Part shown: piece by piece, positions 10,029 through 24,070 of the stretch
Position numbering within the stretch: position 1 is the stretch's first letter
Layout: the number at the start of each line of letters is the position of its first letter
Assembly (NCBI GenBank): GCA_022447225.1
Contig: JAKVAZ010000013.1
Location: 124,001 to 188,000, forward strand
Length of the DNA stretch: 64,000 nucleotides
From: Fuerstiella sp.
Lineage (GTDB): Bacteria; Planctomycetota; Planctomycetia; Planctomycetales; Planctomycetaceae
Reading direction: 5' to 3'
The notes under the pieces: generated by a model
The model's database searches: none
What the model was told of the DNA's origin: nothing
What the model saw: the letters and a program-made list of their open reading frames with translations, nothing else
Made by a program: the position numbers and the translations under genes

Positions 10029-10829
10029 TCAATCGCTGCTTTCTGCTTCTTCCCATTCTCGTAATCGACTGATGAATTCTTCTGTCATTCCGGCTGCACG
10101 ACGGGGCTCTTCCAGAAACAGTTTGCCGCGTGCTTTTGACGGGCGCAGGGGCCATGTGAGGTTCTGTTCCCAGACCGTAAAGTCATCCATTCCTGGTGGT
10201 TTGAGTCTTCGCAGCCATTTCAGTCCAAATTCCACATGACGGATTTCGTCGCGGTGAATGGAACGCATAATTCCGGCGCTGCGGCGATCACCGGCATCCA
10301 GAAAGTACTCTTCGAATTCGGCCGTGTGATCCAGGTTGCCACCCTCAAATACCAGTGGGAGACCGCAGACGTATTCCAGCACACTTGCATATCCGACTGC
10401 TCTGGTCCAGATGTAGCCGTTCACCGGCAGTTCACCGAACCGGATACCCAGTTCTGCTGCACGTTGCACGTGTAGTCGGGTATGCCGTTGTTCATCCAGC
10501 ATGATTTCACCCACACCCCGGCGAAATCCAACCGGGGCCTGAGGGAAAGCCAGAATCACCATTGCCATGACTTCCAAAGCCTGCAGTTCGTGGTTCGCCA
10601 TGATGTGATGTGCAATCGCGCGCTTGCGGGGATCTTTCAGAGCAGCAGCCTTTGGCATTTTTGGCGCTGTTCTTTGTGCGGCAAACTGCAGTTGCTCCGG
10701 ACGGGCAGGACGAATCACTCGTTCTGCTTCATGTTCTAATCCGTCAGAAAACGTCTCACCCGGAACGGCCAGTTTCCTGTCGAGCTGTTCGGATGACAGG
10801 ACACATCTTGCAAAGTCACTGAGCTCCAC
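10029..10829 (-). CDS. DUF455 family ferritin-like protein
   Basis: 266 residues. The protein carries the helical diiron-like pattern of the DUF455 family: HHIMANHELQALEVMA (first Glu), DEQRHTRLHVQRAAELG (ExxH) and IHRDEIRHVEFGLKWL (second ExxH), spaced as in ferritin-like four-helix bundles. Family members are predicted metal-dependent oxidases or hydroxylases of unknown substrate. It is cytoplasmic, with no signal peptide. It lies 54 bases downstream of the degenerate ABC exporter gene on the same strand, so cotranscription is possible. The C-terminal third (SKARGKLFLEEPRRAAG) is typical of the family. Confidence 0.8.
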   Translation of the reverse strand: MELSDFARCVLSSEQLDRKLAVPGETFSDGLEHEAERVIRPARPEQLQFAAQRTAPKMPKAAALKDPRKRAIAHHIMANHELQALEVMAMVILAFPQAPVGFRRGVGEIMLDEQRHTRLHVQRAAELGIRFGELPVNGYIWTRAVGYASVLEYVCGLPLVFEGGNLDHTAEFEEYFLDAGDRRSAGIMRSIHRDEIRHVEFGLKWLRRLKPPGMDDFTVWEQNLTWPLRPSKARGKLFLEEPRRAAGMTEEFISRLREWEEAESSD

Positions 10830-10883: not shown

Positions 10884-12734
10884 TTATTCGCCGGATCGGA
10901 ATACATTAAAACGAATGTATTCCCAGTGACGGTACAATTCAGAGCTGATTACCAGTTCATCGTGAGGGCCGTCCGCAACCACTCGACCATCATTCAGCAG
11001 GACCACCCGGTCACATTTTTTGACGGTGGACAGCCGAAAGGGCAGAAAGACGACTGTTCGATCCTGACAGATTCGATCAAAAGTATCATCGAGAAGTGCC
11101 TTGGTTTCGCTGTCCAGCGAAACATGAGGTTCTTCGATAAACAGCAATGCGGGTTTGCGAACGATGGCACGTGCGATGGCCAGACGAAACGCCTGTCCGG
11201 CATCGAGCGGGACACCGTAATCACCGACCTGAGTTTCGTAGCCCTTCGGCAGCTGTCGTGTGAATTTTTCCGCGTGAGCAATTTTTCCGGCTTCCATCGC
11301 CTGTTGCCTCGAAATGTCAGCCTGTCCGCATGTGATATTTTCCAGCACGGTGGCGTTGAACAGATTGTTCATCCCCGAGACGATCATCGACTCGGCTCGC
11401 AGCGATTCCAGCGTCGCCTGTCGGATGTTTCTGCCGTCAAGAAGTACCTGTCCGCTTTGTGGATCGTTCAATCGGGGAACCAGACTCACGAGCGCACTGG
11501 TTTCTTCATAGCACAGGGAAATCAAAGCCACTCGCTGGCCGACATCGATTTTTAGGTCCAGTTGATTCAGCAGGTTCGGGTGGTCGGGTGTGTCAACGCA
11601 GATTTGATCGAACTGCAGGTTGCGCGACAGAGGCTCCTGGAACCGTGCGCGTACGACCTGACTCACGTCCGGTACAGACCGAATGTATTCATTGATTTCT
11701 TCGGCGGCGACACTGCCTCGGAGCTCGTAGTCCTGAGAAAGCTGCAATGCACGCAGTGTTTGATAAAGCAGCACCAGGCTGATTCCAATGATCGTAATGC
11801 CTGACAGGCCGATCTGATCGTCTGTCAGCAGATGTCGTAACAGAATCCAGCTAGGAGCGCCGGCGGCGAAAATCAGAATGGCTCGATTTACCCAGACACC
11901 CCGACGCAGTTCACGACTCACCTGTCCACGGTGTCGATCGAAGGCATTCAGGTTCTCTTCAAATTGCTCATGTTCAAAAGACTCCATGCCATAGCCCGCA
12001 ACGATTCGTGATTTTTCCAGACCGTTAGCCAGGCGATTCAGACTGCGGTCCACCTGTTCGCTCAGCAGGTCGGAAGTGTTCGACAGACGTTTTTCCTCCA
12101 TCATCATCAGAAACCAGCCTGCGACGACCGGAATCATACATTCCATGCCTGCATAAAAGTGCACAAGACAACAGGTCACAGGTAAAGCAACCAGATCAGC
12201 CATGCCTCCGATTGTCAGTCGAGTCCACTGATGGACTGAGGTCTGAACCTGATCGGCTGACTCCCGGAACAAACGTCGACTCGTATCGATACGTTCTCCG
12301 TGAAGGTCTCCTGCATTCAGTCGCAGAGACTGCCGATGCAGATGTTGCCGCAATCTGCGAACGCGTACAGACGCATATGCGGACGACTGACCCGAGACCG
12401 CTGCCTGCAGCAGCCACCGAAGTCCTACGAATATCAGTCCGGCAACCGTAAGAACGGGCAGGGGCGAACGATTCTCACGCAGCAGGGGAATCTGATCGAC
12501 AAGTTGCCGTAATATCCGCTCTGGAAATGTGTCGTCCTGCAGTACTGATTGCAGAGCCATTTCACCCTGGCCGGCAATTCGTACCTGAATCAGTCCGGTA
12601 ATCGCCCCAGCGCAAAGAATGAAACCCACCAGACAAACTGACGCCGCAACGGCGCAGACTGTTGCTCCGAGCAGGGCCGGACGGAACAACTGCCGAGTCG
12701 ATACGATCCGACTGAACAGATTTGCTTCAGACAC
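10884..12734 (-). CDS. ABC exporter-like protein with degenerate nucleotide-binding domain
   Basis: 616 residues with the layout of a half-size ABC exporter: membrane domain about 15-335 with hydrophobic segments near 22-50, 93-112, 176-210 and 283-330, then an ABC domain about 376-610. The domain aligns along its full length, yet every ATP motif is altered. The P-loop position reads SLCYEETSA (406-414) with no GxxGxGKS lysine; the Q-loop Gln is missing (IVSGMNNLF); the signature is LDAGQ (510-514); Walker B is LLFIEE (530-535); the switch His is Phe566 in PFRLST. The frame is intact with normal codon use, so it is a maintained pseudo-ATPase, not a pseudogene. It may pair with an active half-transporter elsewhere. 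Confidence 0.85.
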   Translation of the reverse strand: MSEANLFSRIVSTRQLFRPALLGATVCAVAASVCLVGFILCAGAITGLIQVRIAGQGEMALQSVLQDDTFPERILRQLVDQIPLLRENRSPLPVLTVAGLIFVGLRWLLQAAVSGQSSAYASVRVRRLRQHLHRQSLRLNAGDLHGERIDTSRRLFRESADQVQTSVHQWTRLTIGGMADLVALPVTCCLVHFYAGMECMIPVVAGWFLMMMEEKRLSNTSDLLSEQVDRSLNRLANGLEKSRIVAGYGMESFEHEQFEENLNAFDRHRGQVSRELRRGVWVNRAILIFAAGAPSWILLRHLLTDDQIGLSGITIIGISLVLLYQTLRALQLSQDYELRGSVAAEEINEYIRSVPDVSQVVRARFQEPLSRNLQFDQICVDTPDHPNLLNQLDLKIDVGQRVALISLCYEETSALVSLVPRLNDPQSGQVLLDGRNIRQATLESLRAESMIVSGMNNLFNATVLENITCGQADISRQQAMEAGKIAHAEKFTRQLPKGYETQVGDYGVPLDAGQAFRLAIARAIVRKPALLFIEEPHVSLDSETKALLDDTFDRICQDRTVVFLPFRLSTVKKCDRVVLLNDGRVVADGPHDELVISSELYRHWEYIRFNVFRSGE

Positions 12735-18535: not shown

Positions 18536-19954
18536 TCACACGGCAGCGATCTGCTCGTAGGCCTGCCCCTCGTTTTCATCAATGCGTTCGGGACGACCTT
18601 TGTGCAGATAGATCAGTTCCCGATGGTCGATACCCATCAAATGCAGAATCGTTGCATGCAGGTCGTGGACGTGCAGCCGATCTTCGACGGCATGCAGTCC
18701 GACATCGTCGGTCGTACCGTAGGCGTAACCGGACCGGACTCCTCCGCCCGACATCCACATGGTGAATCCGGTTGCATTGTGATCACGACCATCCCCCTTC
18801 TCACTCATCGGAGTCCGCCCAAACTCGCCACCCCAGAATACCAGTGTTTCATCCAGCAGCCCGCGCTGCTTCAGATCCGTCAGCAGGCCTGCCACCGGCA
18901 GATCCATCTGCCCGCACATCTTTGAATGGTTCTGTTCGATTTTGGTATGAGCGTCCCATTTATTGCCCGCACCGTGATAGCACTGGACGAATCGAACTCC
19001 GCGTTCAACCAGCCGTCGAGCCAGCAGGCAGTTGCGACCACAGGCCGCTGTGGTTTCGCGGTCCAGACCATAAAGTTGTCGAGTGGCGGCCGTTTCCTGT
19101 GACAGATCAACAGCTTCGGGAGCATGCGACTGCATCTGATAGGCGAGTTCATAGCTTCGAATGCGGGCTTCCAGATCGCTGTTGTCCGGACGGGATCTGG
19201 CATGCCTGCGGTTGAGCCGGCGAAGGAAATCGAGTTTCACACGCTGTTGTGAATCACTGATATGATCGGGCGACACCAGGTTGGCAAAAGGCGGGCCTTC
19301 CACCTGCAATGCTGTTCCCTGGTAGACCGCCGGCATGAATCCTCCACTCCAGTTGCGCGGCCCGTTGGTGATGGTGGCGGGTGTGTCCTGCATGACCACA
19401 AAGGCGGGCAGGTTTTCGTTGGTGCTGCCCAGCCCGTATGTCACCCAGCTGCCCAGCGACGGGCGTCCGGCAAACTGGCTGCCGGTATTCATCTGACACA
19501 CACCGCCCGAATGATTGATTCCGTTTGTCCAGCAGGAACGAATGACGGCCAGATCATCCGCATGGTTTGCCGTATGGGGCAGCCAGTCGGAGACCCACAG
19601 ACCACTTTCCCCGTGTTGTTTCCACGAACGCTGAGACGGCAACACCGGAGAATCGAATTCTCCCATGGGCGTAATAACTCGTTCAAAGCTGTCGGGAATT
19701 CGCTGTCCGGCCAGTCGCTGCAGCGCCGGTTTGGGATCAAATGTGTCTATGTGGCTGGGACCACCTTCCATGAACAAAAAGATCACACTTTTTGCCTGTG
19801 CCGCACGGGGCGCCAGTTTTGCCGTCAGGGGAGACGGCATCGATGCTGCCGTCGTATCACTGTTTATAAGACCGGCCAGCGCGAGCGCGCCAAATCCGTT
19901 CCCGCTGTTGAGCAGCATGTCACGCCGGAGAAGTCTGTCGGATTCAATCGACAT
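18536..19954 (-). CDS. DUF1501 family protein (copy 1)
   Basis: 472 residues. The N-terminus has a twin-arginine-like start (LLRRDMLLNSGNGFGALALAGL), so export by Tat is likely. The body shows the DUF1501 pattern: FLFMEGGPSHIDTFDPKP, VVMQDTPATITNGP, LARRLVERGVRFVQC, FWGGEFGRTP, GFTMWMSGGGVRSG and HDLHATILHLMGIDH. The fold belongs to the alkaline-phosphatase/sulfatase superfamily, but the metal-binding set is not the classical one and the activity is unknown. The start overlaps the stop of the upstream cytochrome-domain gene by 11 bases, the usual planctomycete pairing; the two products probably work together outside the cytoplasmic membrane. Confidence 0.9.
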   Translation of the reverse strand: MSIESDRLLRRDMLLNSGNGFGALALAGLINSDTTAASMPSPLTAKLAPRAAQAKSVIFLFMEGGPSHIDTFDPKPALQRLAGQRIPDSFERVITPMGEFDSPVLPSQRSWKQHGESGLWVSDWLPHTANHADDLAVIRSCWTNGINHSGGVCQMNTGSQFAGRPSLGSWVTYGLGSTNENLPAFVVMQDTPATITNGPRNWSGGFMPAVYQGTALQVEGPPFANLVSPDHISDSQQRVKLDFLRRLNRRHARSRPDNSDLEARIRSYELAYQMQSHAPEAVDLSQETAATRQLYGLDRETTAACGRNCLLARRLVERGVRFVQCYHGAGNKWDAHTKIEQNHSKMCGQMDLPVAGLLTDLKQRGLLDETLVFWGGEFGRTPMSEKGDGRDHNATGFTMWMSGGGVRSGYAYGTTDDVGLHAVEDRLHVHDLHATILHLMGIDHRELIYLHKGRPERIDENEGQAYEQIAAV

Positions 19955-22355
19955 AAATCAGTTCGCTGGAATTAAACAGTGTATGCAGGAACGCCACCTG
20001 AGGTTCAGCTGCCGGCGTCTCCGGATTGTTGGATCCATACGCTTTCATAAAACGTCGTGCCGACGTGATTTCGACATCCTCCGGATTACGAAAGTACAGC
20101 CGGCGATATGCCTTTTGTATAAATTGGGAGTCAGACACAGCATTCAGGGTTTCAGCCATCGCAGTGGCCCGATCGTGCACCCAGGGACTGTTCATCAGCA
20201 GAAGTGCCTGAGGCGGCGTGGTTGTTCGGTGCCGCTGACCGATACTGCGAATTCGATCAGGAAAATCAAACGTGGCCAGGAGCGGGTCGTGTTTGTTTCT
20301 CATCACGGGGCGGTAGACGGCTCGCCTGACTGTTTCCAGTTCGCCGCTGGCATAAAGGATCGTATCCACAATTTCTTCGCTCGACAGTCGCCGACAATCC
20401 ATTCGCCACAGCAGTCTGTTGTCAGGATCGAGTGTTGCCCGCCGGTCACCCGGTGTCCATTGAGACGTCTGACGCCAGGTGGATGATGTCAGAATACGAT
20501 GGTGCAGTTTTCTGAGACTCCAGCCATCTTCTACAAATCGGCTGGCCAGCCAGTCCAGGAGCTGCGGATGAGAAGGGAGGGTCCCGAGATGTCCAAAATC
20601 ACTGCTGGTGTTCACCAGGCCGTGACCAAAGTGTTGTTGCCAGATTCGGTTTACGATCACTCGTGCGGTCAGTGGATTGGCTGGATCCGTAATCCATCCT
20701 GCCAGAGTCGATCGACGGCCGGTTGACTGCAGGCCTGTGGGAACAGCATTGATTTCTGCCGGGCCGTCGTTGAATACAGATAGAAATCCGGGCGCAATCG
20801 GTGTTTGATTCGGATCGTCCGGGATATAGGTTGGCGGAGCAACCGATCCAACATCACTGACCACGAAACTGAGCGTTGGCAGCGCGGTCGGTTTTATGGA
20901 ATCGAACTTTGACAGCTGTTGGCGCAATTTCCGGCGTTTTGCTTCGGTGGCTTTGTCCAGCTGTTCGGCCAGCTTGCCGGGATGCAGCTTCATCTGACGC
21001 AGCGCCAACGAGGCAATCTGGTGTTCATAGGGAGACCGATAGGCCGGGCGGCTAAGCATCATTGCTTTGAGCCGTGGTACGAATTTGTCAAAAGGTTCCC
21101 CTGTGGCGTTCTGCAGGAGAACAGGTGTTTCGATGTTATGGATCTGCCGTCTGACAGTGTCGGTTGCTTCCAGCCATTTGCTTTGTTGATCGTGAAACTG
21201 AGTTCGGTCTGCAATATTTGCTACCGGCATGACTTCTGTGGGCTGAATGGCCTCAAAGAATGCCCGTATGCGGAAGTAATCCTGCTGAGTGATCGGATCA
21301 AATTTGTGATCATGACACCTGGCGCATTTGATTCCCTGCGCCAGAAACACATCCGCTGTGGTTTCGGTGATATCGTCCAGAATTTCGCGCCACTGGCGTT
21401 CGACGTCCGGCTGGTTTTGTTCATAAATCCCGTGACGCAGAAACATGGTGGCGATGATGGCATCCCGATTACCCGGATCCGTTTCGTCACCGGCCAGCTG
21501 TTCGACTACGAACCGGTCATAGGGCTTATCGGCGTTAAAAGAACGAATGACGTAGTCGCGGTAGAGTTTTGCGAATGGTCGTGGACCGTCGGATCGGTAA
21601 CCGTCGGAATCAGCGTATCGCACGAGGTCAAGCCAGAAACGTGCCTGGTTTTCCCCGTAGGTCGGACTGTCCAGCAGCTGGTTGACCAGCATTTCGTAAT
21701 CATCATCGCCGTCGACATAACGCACTGCTGACTGATCCGGTGGAAGACCGGTAACAGCAAAGTGAACACGACGGGCCAGTACGGACGGTGCGGCCTCGTT
21801 TGATGGTTCAACATCGTTCGCGCTCATTCGGTCAAAAATAAACTGATCAACCTCGTTGCGGCACCATCCGTTATCGACCACGTCGGGTACCGGCGGATCC
21901 TCAATCGGCTGATAACACCACCAGTTGCGGTCAGCGGCTGTCGACTTGCTGACGGGCTGAAGTTTCATGCCGTTCGGCCATTGCGCGCCGGCATCGATCC
22001 ATGTTCTGATACCTCGCACCAGTCGTTCTTCCAGAGGTCCGTCCGGAGGCATTTCCAGTGATTCGTATCTCAATGCCTGAAGCAACAAACTTTGTTCCGG
22101 CTGACCCGGAATGACGGCCGGTCCGGAATCGCCACCGGTCAGTATCGATTCCGCTGAATCCAGTTGCAGGCCGTTTTCGTGTCTGGTTGGACCATGGCAT
22201 TTGATGCAGTACTTCACCAGGACGGGGCGAACATGTGTTTCAAACAAATCCCGATCCGCCGGCAGGATGTCTTCCGCGCAGACCATCATCACATTTGATG
22301 CAAGCAGGAGTAACGCTGCAACGCTGATGCCTGGACGGCACATCAAAGCGTTCAC
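19944..22355 (-). CDS. PSCyt1/DUF1549/DUF1553 cytochrome c-domain protein (copy 1)
   Basis: 803 residues. A signal peptide (about 1-27) is followed by a planctomycete-type cytochrome domain with heme motif CIKCH near residue 50 and the distal EMPPDGPL. DUF1549 follows, with a second CxxCH (CARCHDHKFDP, near 345), and DUF1553 occupies the C-terminal half (TARVIVNRIWQQHFGHGLV, SSDFGHLGTLPSHPQLLDWLA, TTTPPQALLLMNSPWV). These secreted proteins are strikingly expanded in Planctomycetes; their substrate is unknown, though links with polysaccharide breakdown are often proposed. It overlaps the DUF1501 gene by 11 bases and is a distant paralogue of the gene at 24073-26469. Confidence 0.92.
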   Translation of the reverse strand: MNALMCRPGISVAALLLLASNVMMVCAEDILPADRDLFETHVRPVLVKYCIKCHGPTRHENGLQLDSAESILTGGDSGPAVIPGQPEQSLLLQALRYESLEMPPDGPLEERLVRGIRTWIDAGAQWPNGMKLQPVSKSTAADRNWWCYQPIEDPPVPDVVDNGWCRNEVDQFIFDRMSANDVEPSNEAAPSVLARRVHFAVTGLPPDQSAVRYVDGDDDYEMLVNQLLDSPTYGENQARFWLDLVRYADSDGYRSDGPRPFAKLYRDYVIRSFNADKPYDRFVVEQLAGDETDPGNRDAIIATMFLRHGIYEQNQPDVERQWREILDDITETTADVFLAQGIKCARCHDHKFDPITQQDYFRIRAFFEAIQPTEVMPVANIADRTQFHDQQSKWLEATDTVRRQIHNIETPVLLQNATGEPFDKFVPRLKAMMLSRPAYRSPYEHQIASLALRQMKLHPGKLAEQLDKATEAKRRKLRQQLSKFDSIKPTALPTLSFVVSDVGSVAPPTYIPDDPNQTPIAPGFLSVFNDGPAEINAVPTGLQSTGRRSTLAGWITDPANPLTARVIVNRIWQQHFGHGLVNTSSDFGHLGTLPSHPQLLDWLASRFVEDGWSLRKLHHRILTSSTWRQTSQWTPGDRRATLDPDNRLLWRMDCRRLSSEEIVDTILYASGELETVRRAVYRPVMRNKHDPLLATFDFPDRIRSIGQRHRTTTPPQALLLMNSPWVHDRATAMAETLNAVSDSQFIQKAYRRLYFRNPEDVEITSARRFMKAYGSNNPETPAAEPQVAFLHTLFNSSELIYVD

Positions 22356-22699
22356 GGGATTCTCCGGAGGAATAAATCAGTTCGGATCGCCATGTGACTG
22401 CCTGGATCAGACCTTTGTTCATTTGATCCGAACCGCACAGTATTATTACAGCGTTGGCATCAGGAATATTCGAGTAAGAATGGCACACAGAAGCCTCGCT
22501 TTTTCAAACAACCGGACTTTTCTGCCGATGTTGCAGCGTTTGTGGAATTGTGCCTGTGACTGCAGTCGGTCCCGCATGTCGACAGGCTGTATTCCGGAAA
22601 ACCGGCAGTCACTGTGTCAATGAATGGTGCTGCTGTTTGACGTTAATTCTGCGTCTGGGAGCCAGACGCTTTTGCTTTTGTCAAACCCAAACGTTCGGG
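22356..22699. other. Spacer between the two cytochrome/DUF1501 pairs
   Basis: Flanked by leftward genes on both sides. It must hold a terminator for the second DUF1501 gene and/or a promoter for the first pair. A sequence rich in Shine-Dalgarno bases (GGAGAATCC on the minus strand) lies just before the start at 22355. Short frames on both strands have no family resemblance. Confidence 0.4.
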
Positions 22700-24070
22700 T
22701 CAGGCAATGATATCTTTTACGACATGCCCGTGAATATCTGTGAGACGGAAATCACGGCCGGAGTATCGGTAGGTCAGTCGTTCATGGTCCAGCCCCAGCA
22801 GGTACAGAATCGTTGCATGCAGGTCGTGGACGGTGACGATGTTTTTCACGGCCTTGAAGCCGAAGTCATCCGTTGCACCGTAGGTCATCCCGCCGCGTAT
22901 TCCACCTCCGGCCATCCACATTGAAAAACCGTAATGGTTGTGATCGCGGCCGTTTCCGTTTTCCGAAACTGGTGTCCTGCCAAACTCACCACCCCACACG
23001 ATGAGTGTCTCATCGAGCAAACCTCGTTGTTTCAGATCTTTCAGTAATGCCGCGATCGGCTGATCAACTTCCCGGGTGGCTTCACGAATCTTGCGGTTGA
23101 TGTCACTATGATGATCCCACTGGTTGATTTCGAGCTGCACGTAGCGAACCCCACGTTCGACCAGCCTTCGGGCCAGCAGACAGCCGTCCCCAAACCATCC
23201 GTCACCATACGACTGGCGCAGCGACTCTGTCTCGCGGCTTAAATCACAGGCTTCACCGGCGGTGAACTGCATTCGGAACCCTGTTTCCATGGATCGGATT
23301 CGGGCGTCAAGCACGCCGTCGCCGGCGCGACGTTCCCGATGTCTGAGGTTAAACTGCTGCAGAAACTCAAACTGGCGAAGCTGATCTGCCGGAGTCAGCT
23401 GTGAGTTTCGCAGGTGCGCGATCATTTGTTCAGGAGTCTCCTTTGAGACATCGATTGGTGTTGCCTGGTGCTCGCCGGGCAGATAACCGTGGCGAACGTA
23501 CCGTGACGGGGTCGCGGCTTTTCTCAACGACACAAAGGCAGGCAGATTCCGGTTTTCTGTTCCCAGACCGTGTGACATCCAGGCGCCGAGTGTCGGATGA
23601 ATCTGATCGATTCGGCCGGAGAACATCCAGTTGCCCGCGGGAGCATGATTTGGATTGCCACCCACCATCGACCGAATCACACAGATATCATCGATGCATG
23701 CTCCAATATTCGGGAACAGGTCGCTGACTTCCAGACCGGACTGTCCGTAACGCCGAAAATCAAACGGTGAAGGCATGAGTCCCCGAGTCACCCGCTCGGT
23801 TCGCAGCTTGACCCTTTCCGGTCGCTGACCGGCATACTTCGTAATCAGCGGTTTGGGATCCAGTAAATCGATGTGTGACGGGCCACCTCTCATGAACAGA
23901 AAAATGACATGTTTGGCGCGCGGCACAAAGTGTTGTTTTGGCGGAATGCTTCCGGATGTTCGGTTTTCGGACAACAAATCGGCCAGAGCCACACCGCCGA
24001 TTCCGGCACCAAGTGAACGTAGCGCTTCTCGCCGTGTACCACATGTCGGAGTATCAGAAAAAAGTGCCAT
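22700..24070 (-). CDS. DUF1501 family protein (copy 2)
   Basis: 456 residues, the same family as the gene at 18536-19954: RREALRSLGAGIGGVALADLL (Tat-like N-terminus), FLFMRGGPSHIDLLDPKP, CVIRSMVGGNPNHAPA, LARRLVERGVRYVQLE, VWGGEFGRTP, GFSMWMAGGGIRGG and HDLHATILYLLGLDHERLTYRYSGRDFRLTD. The last block is also the part recognisable in the fragment at 50331-50546. It starts 2 bases after the stop of its cytochrome-domain partner. Sequence divergence from copy 1 is large, so the two pairs are old duplicates or independent acquisitions, not a recent tandem duplication. Confidence 0.9.
   Translation of the reverse strand: MALFSDTPTCGTRREALRSLGAGIGGVALADLLSENRTSGSIPPKQHFVPRAKHVIFLFMRGGPSHIDLLDPKPLITKYAGQRPERVKLRTERVTRGLMPSPFDFRRYGQSGLEVSDLFPNIGACIDDICVIRSMVGGNPNHAPAGNWMFSGRIDQIHPTLGAWMSHGLGTENRNLPAFVSLRKAATPSRYVRHGYLPGEHQATPIDVSKETPEQMIAHLRNSQLTPADQLRQFEFLQQFNLRHRERRAGDGVLDARIRSMETGFRMQFTAGEACDLSRETESLRQSYGDGWFGDGCLLARRLVERGVRYVQLEINQWDHHSDINRKIREATREVDQPIAALLKDLKQRGLLDETLIVWGGEFGRTPVSENGNGRDHNHYGFSMWMAGGGIRGGMTYGATDDFGFKAVKNIVTVHDLHATILYLLGLDHERLTYRYSGRDFRLTDIHGHVVKDIIA

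Follow-up and report, generated by a model that had tools for sequence, protein, structure and literature searches.

We have analyzed a degenerate ABC half-exporter gene of Fuerstiella sp. together with its orthologues in the Planctomycetia. The gene lies in a stretch of 64,000 nucleotides (the window) and encodes a protein, here called the pseudo-exporter, in which an exporter architecture is combined with the absence of the ATP-site motifs. The absence is common to the class, where selection maintains the gene, and an ABC-2 permease gene is found directly upstream in most loci. Since the ATP parts have been lost class-wide in a gene that is nevertheless held by selection beside a second transporter gene, the pseudo-exporter is probably ATP-independent. 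Our preferred model, which we put forward tentatively and at somewhat less than even odds, is that of a nucleotide-independent protein that supports the upstream permease in a structural or regulatory capacity.

Architecture and ATP-site motifs of the pseudo-exporter

The features discussed here are collected in Table 1. The pseudo-exporter reading frame is open from a GTG start at 12734 to a stop at 10884-10886, on the minus strand. The transmembrane domain (TMD) spans approximately residues 1-350 and the pseudo nucleotide-binding domain (pseudo-NBD) approximately residues 370-600. In Pfam the protein matches ABC_tran (PF00005) above that model's own cut-off. Among the NCBIfam models it matches MsbA-type ones best, with scores that reach a quarter to a third of the cut-offs: TIGR02203, the MsbA lipid A exporter equivalog, scores 203 bits against a curated cut-off of 602, which leaves the protein outside the equivalog, and TIGR02204 scores 217 against 780. 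By phmmer against the PDB, the NBD aligns with ABCB-type exporters and the P-loop column is ungapped. The AlphaFold2 model (45 orthologues) has a mean pLDDT of 89.7 and a pTM of 0.80, and its best full-length Foldseek matches are MsbA, ABCB10, ABCB8, TM287/288 and TmrAB (E ~1e-32 to MsbA; TM-score 0.75/0.82 with 9fur). Judged by this predicted fold, in which a TMD of six long helices precedes an NBD of ABC fold, the protein is a complete type IV (MsbA-like) ABC half-exporter. The description of an open, full-length half-ABC exporter in the first-pass annotation, which had proposed a structural comparison with active exporters, is borne out by the ORF, the full-length structural alignment and the ABC_tran match.

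Table 1. Coordinates of the pseudo-exporter, its motifs, its neighbours and the intact paralogue
Feature	Position	Strand	Remarks
Degenerate half-ABC exporter	10884..12734	minus	616 aa; AF2, Pfam, phmmer
C-terminal motif, family-specific, residues 601-612 YRHWEYIRFNVF	10899..10934	minus	H603, Y606 at 98%
Ex-H-loop, residue 566 = Phe	11037..11039	minus	alignment column
Walker B region, residues 530-536 LLFIEEP	11127..11147	minus	Asp534 -> Glu; catalytic Glu535 retained
Ex-signature, residues 510-514 LDAGQ	11193..11207	minus	LSGGQ in 0/97 orthologues
Ex-Q-loop, residues 448-455 ESMIVSGM	11370..11393	minus	Gln454 -> Gly
Ex-P-loop, residues 406-414 SLCYEETSA	11493..11519	minus	family consensus SLDPLEARA; Walker A absent in 97/97 orthologues
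TMD-NBD linker, family-specific, residues 355-373	11616..11672	minus	consensus PxVGQAVGAKFLQPLSKxL
ABC-2 (NosY-like) permease, 325 aa	13008..13985	minus	directly upstream, co-oriented, 273-bp gap here; PF12679
DUF455 (PF04305) ferritin-like gene	10029..10829	minus	54 bp downstream of pseudo-exporter
Intact MsbA-like paralogue	G000:C1:268657-270768 (L003), own genome		near-universal across class

The alignment columns, ungapped at the P-loop, confirm the residues that had been named for the P-loop, the Q-loop, the signature, the end of Walker B and position 566. The broader claim that every ATP-contact motif is altered holds for the P-loop, Q-loop, signature, Walker B Asp and H-loop; Glu535, the D-loop Asp and the X-loop are retained. 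At the aromatic A-loop columns, 380/382, the protein has Val and Thr. A functional ABC ATPase is expected to combine Walker A, LSGGQ, the Walker B Asp and Glu, the Q-loop Gln and the H-loop His, and on its sequence the Fuerstiella protein would not be classed as one.

Motif loss among the orthologues

Motif residues were counted in 97 distinct orthologues (96 for some columns) and in 32 intact paralogues. Neither the full Walker A (GxxGxGK[S/T]) nor LSGGQ occurs in any of the 97 orthologues, whereas all 32 paralogues have every motif; a loss shared in this way is far above chance. The Walker B Asp (column 534) is likewise found in 0/96, while the catalytic Glu535 is invariant (96/96). Also largely preserved are the D-loop Asp (82/96), the X-loop Thr (94/97) and the X-loop Gly (90/97); together with the Glu, their retention suggests that selection preserves NBD-NBD and NBD-TMD contacts. 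Whether orthologues carry the same substitutions had been raised as a check on the initial reading, and all 97 share the motif loss; no orthologue with an intact P-loop was found. As these substitutions recur in dozens of genomes that were sequenced independently, we reject a recent loss or a sequencing error.

Other positions differ between family groups (f1 is the family of the window; f2, f3, f4 and so on denote other groups). Lys412 is retained in 17 of 97 orthologues, exclusively in f2, f3 and f8, and in none of the 64 from f1. Gln454 follows a similar pattern (f1 0/64, f2 8/8, f3 7/13, f8 3/3), as does His566 (f1 1/64, f2 8/8), and all sampled members of f2 and f8 retain both. In f2, f3 and f8, Gly406, Lys412, Gln454 and His566 are often kept, but both inner glycines and the Ser/Thr are missing. 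The loss of ATP motifs was thus staged, with some families keeping Lys412, Gln454 and His566 and f1 not, and these groups represent natural intermediates in which to ask at what stage, and for what reason, nucleotide binding could be dispensed with. Divergent members of f2, f3, f4, f5, f6, f8, f97, f100 and f101 are still degenerate.

The P-loop position of f1 is now occupied by a new conserved acidic/hydrophobic stretch, S-L-D-P-L-E, which is neutral to acidic where the intact paralogues are basic. Two motifs, VGQAVGAKFLQPLSK in the linker and YRHWEYxRFNEF at the C terminus, characterise the family and show no such conservation in the intact paralogues. Linker residues Q359, F365 and P368 are present in 86-90% of orthologues and rare among the intact paralogues; H603 and Y606 are invariant in f1. 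A non-standard mode of nucleotide binding, for example by a sensor, could draw on the invariant Glu535 and the X-loop, or on Lys412 in f2/f3, but we regard it as very unlikely, given that f1 has lost the Gly-rich loop and Lys412 and that almost every f1 pseudo-P-loop is neutral to acidic.

Distribution, phylogeny and selection

A profile search (E 1e-110 or better) found the gene in 190 of 298 Planctomycetia genomes, normally as a single copy; copy numbers and absences depend on draft genomes and on the thresholds. A search of 99 relatives gave orthologues in nearly all genomes of the same family; orthologue identity is 85% in one genome of the same genus, 62% in another and mostly 30-50% family-wide. 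In the phylum sample, proteins of the same family score ~740-880 bits and matches from outside the class start at 383 bits, a sharp gap; no intact orthologue was found in this sample, and those matches below the gap that were read belong to intact exporters and fall outside the clade. Beyond the phylum, distribution was probed by a species-wide scan of a genome collection, which reaches close relatives only, and by a plasmid search. Family members in the scan are exclusively planctomycete, the closest relative falling in Fuerstiella (Planctomycetia, Planctomycetales), and no plasmid copies were found at E 1e-60.

In trees built without the motif columns, all degenerate proteins group in a single clade, with an SH-aLRT of 100 in a tree of 70 rows and support of 100/100 in a tree of 46 rows. 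Inner branches of this clade track the family groups, and a single origin followed by vertical inheritance is therefore the simplest reading. Neither tree resolves the nearest intact relative or a sister relation to the intact paralogue of the class.

Between the window species and its 85%-identical relative, dN/dS is 0.17-0.20, and other close pairs give 0.03-0.09. Calculated by domain for the first pair, it is 0.10-0.11 for the NBD and 0.21-0.25 for the TMD. The pseudo-exporter is thus under purifying selection, and the dead domain is the more constrained of the two. A decaying pseudogene or a sequencing error would fit the motif loss taken by itself, but the open frames, the purifying selection, the substitutions common to many genomes and the confident fold leave these explanations with a negligible probability, and we reject the pseudogene. 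The first-pass annotation had proposed a maintained, selected and non-hydrolytic protein and had named intact orthologues, a dN/dS near 1 and a sequencing error as observations that would speak against it. None of these was found, and the shared substitutions, the dN/dS values and the tighter constraint on the NBD argue in favour of its proposal.

Selection on the two domains also bears on an ATP-independent transporter, flippase or scramblase that would work as a homodimer on ion or substrate gradients. The TMD is retained complete, and MsbA and LmrA are reported to couple transport to ion gradients as well as to ATP (PMC4979069, PMC6155054). A pure transporter would have no use for an NBD, yet the NBD is the more tightly held domain (0.10 vs 0.21), and there are no family-specific charged residues in the TMD, L262 alone having passed the cut-off. 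We consider this explanation unlikely.

The intact paralogue and degenerate-site exporters

Of 99 relatives, 98 have an intact MsbA-like paralogue of ~700 aa, normally single-copy, and nearly all carriers of the pseudo-exporter are among them. Each copy checked (13/13) has all canonical motifs; the paralogue thus looks self-sufficient, and its persistence in genomes without the degenerate gene indicates that it does not depend on the pseudo-exporter. A search for a companion half-transporter, suggested earlier, accordingly gave a divided answer: an intact paralogue exists elsewhere in the genome, but none adjoins the pseudo-exporter, whose neighbours are the ABC-2 permease and unrelated genes. 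No intact half-exporter was co-encoded beside the pseudo-exporter in the loci read.

The pseudo-exporter could be the structural half of a heterodimer, with this paralogue as its likeliest mate, ATP being bound by the intact half and the dead half shaping the substrate path. The near-universal paralogue, the exporter fold and the retained X-loop and coupling positions are consistent with such an arrangement. However, the signature has been lost in addition to Walker A, so that a canonical composite site would not be expected with any partner, which weakens the case for a heterodimer of catalytic use; heterodimerisation may occur, yet it would restore no ordinary ATP site. As the paralogue is also fully canonical, exists without the degenerate gene and is never adjacent to it in the loci read, the heterodimer is in our judgement improbable.

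The known systems most similar to the pseudo-exporter fall into three groups. MsbA and the type IV (ABCB-type) half-exporters (TIGR02203, TIGR02204) have the same full-length fold and domain order and are its best family and structural matches, but the pseudo-exporter lies far under their cut-offs, lacks Walker A, the Q-loop, the signature, the Walker B Asp and the H-loop, and has linker and C-terminal motifs of its own. TM287/288, TAP, TmrAB and BmrCD (PMC7756269) likewise have degenerate ATP motifs under selection in an otherwise complete exporter. In these heterodimers one composite site is canonical, whereas in the pseudo-exporter a single polypeptide has lost the signature side as well as the Walker/H side, with no gene for an intact half next to it. 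In NBD1 of yeast Pdr5 the Walker A Lys is Cys, the Walker B Glu is Asn and the His is Tyr, and the signature of the other NBD is LNVEQ (PMC7756269). Nearly all motifs of one site are thus changed, as in the pseudo-exporter, but Pdr5 is a single chain with a second, canonical site and an inverse domain order, while the pseudo-exporter keeps the catalytic Glu and has lost the signature in the same NBD. The degenerate-site exporters and Pdr5 are the closest precedents, and each of them retains one working site.

Literature searches gave no match for planctomycete ABC transporters with a degenerate Walker A and none combining pseudo-ATPase, ABC transporter and Walker A; the main text of an essentiality paper on Planctopirus limnophila has no mention of ABC transporters or permeases. 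To our knowledge, degenerate ABC sites are always paired with a working site. A single-chain half-exporter that lacks both sides of the ATP site throughout a class raises the question of whether the ABC exporter architecture can work nucleotide-free.

The upstream permease and the proposed role

The permease has a predicted NosY-like fold (matches to 7qba and 7znq). It is directly upstream of the pseudo-exporter and co-oriented with it in 56 of 62 orthologous loci (f1, f2, f3, f4), or 56 of 61 assessable loci, as one of the remaining six stops at a contig edge; coordinates give the same order in members of f5, f6, f97, f100 and f101. Genomes without this adjacency usually have the permease at another site, and the two genes are unlinked in G031, G025, G034 and its relatives, G095, G351 and G361. 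The permease was not found in the draft genome G021. G044 (99% complete), the sole same-family genome shown without the pseudo-exporter, also lacks the permease at the thresholds used, a natural double loss in a group whose relatives have both.

Sampled genomes of f5, f7 and f9 have the permease without the pseudo-exporter, and more distant permease homologues occur in other classes of Planctomycetota; the permease is older than the pseudo-exporter and independent of it. No ATPase gene with a recognisable Walker A and signature lies beside the permease in the loci scanned, including those of other classes. The permease shares the NosY-type fold and the PF12679 domain with the NosDFY system, but in the loci read it has no adjacent NosF-like ATPase gene, and its companion is an ATP-dead exporter.

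According to the model that we prefer, the protein belongs to an ancient family of pseudo-exporters, in which a duplicate of an MsbA-type half-exporter would have lost nucleotide binding before the radiation of the Planctomycetia and would then have been retained as a folded, dimerisation-type membrane protein. The pseudo-exporter would neither bind nor hydrolyse ATP and would serve as a structural or regulatory subunit beside the permease encoded upstream. Its pseudo-NBDs could dimerise without nucleotide or offer a docking platform, and its TMDs could provide the permease with a gate or with a chamber that faces the lipid, presumably for a lipid-type substrate; the permease's own ATPase would be supplied from elsewhere in the genome. 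The frequent adjacency, the double absence in G044 and the conserved linker and C-terminal motifs count in favour of this model, together with the motif loss, the single clade, the usual single copy, the constraint on the NBD and the predicted folds of both proteins. The permeases without a pseudo-exporter, the minority of genomes with unlinked genes and the lack of an ATPase gene beside the permease count against it, and adjacency can reflect co-regulation only. A stronger version, in which an orphan ABC-2 permease has the ATP-dead exporter as its obligate accessory, in a class-wide and vertically inherited complex with the pseudo-NBDs as its nucleotide-free platform, is more doubtful. If true, it would unite two distinct types of ABC transporter in one assembly, powered either by an ATPase encoded elsewhere or without any ATP. 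The linked permease is in any case a concrete candidate partner, and the envelope biology of these bacteria is itself poorly understood.

Other genes near the permease and the pseudo-exporter

The DUF455 gene had been suggested as a functional partner of the pseudo-exporter. It is co-oriented, as described, and here probably belongs to the same transcript, but it adjoins the pseudo-exporter only in the three Fuerstiella genomes and turned up at none of the other orthologous loci read. We therefore reject it as a conserved partner outside the genus; the conserved neighbour is the ABC-2 permease.

Orphan NosY-like permeases occur widely in the Planctomycetota. In classes other than the Planctomycetia (L122, L123, L126, L128, L130, L131, L135, L137) the permease is often followed by an ORF of ~241 aa, which was considered as an NBD and rejected, as it is a YfcE-like metallophosphoesterase.

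A cytidylyltransferase gene (PF02348, KdsB-like) is found within several kb of the permease/pseudo-exporter pair in several loci (L057, L082, L084, L087, L088, L089, L092, L094); its recurrence, mostly in f2, may point towards envelope or LPS biology. Elsewhere in the window, from ~18536-24070 and onward on the minus strand, two tandem pairs of similar ORFs (~460-470 aa and 803 aa, each present twice) suggest a duplicated gene pair.
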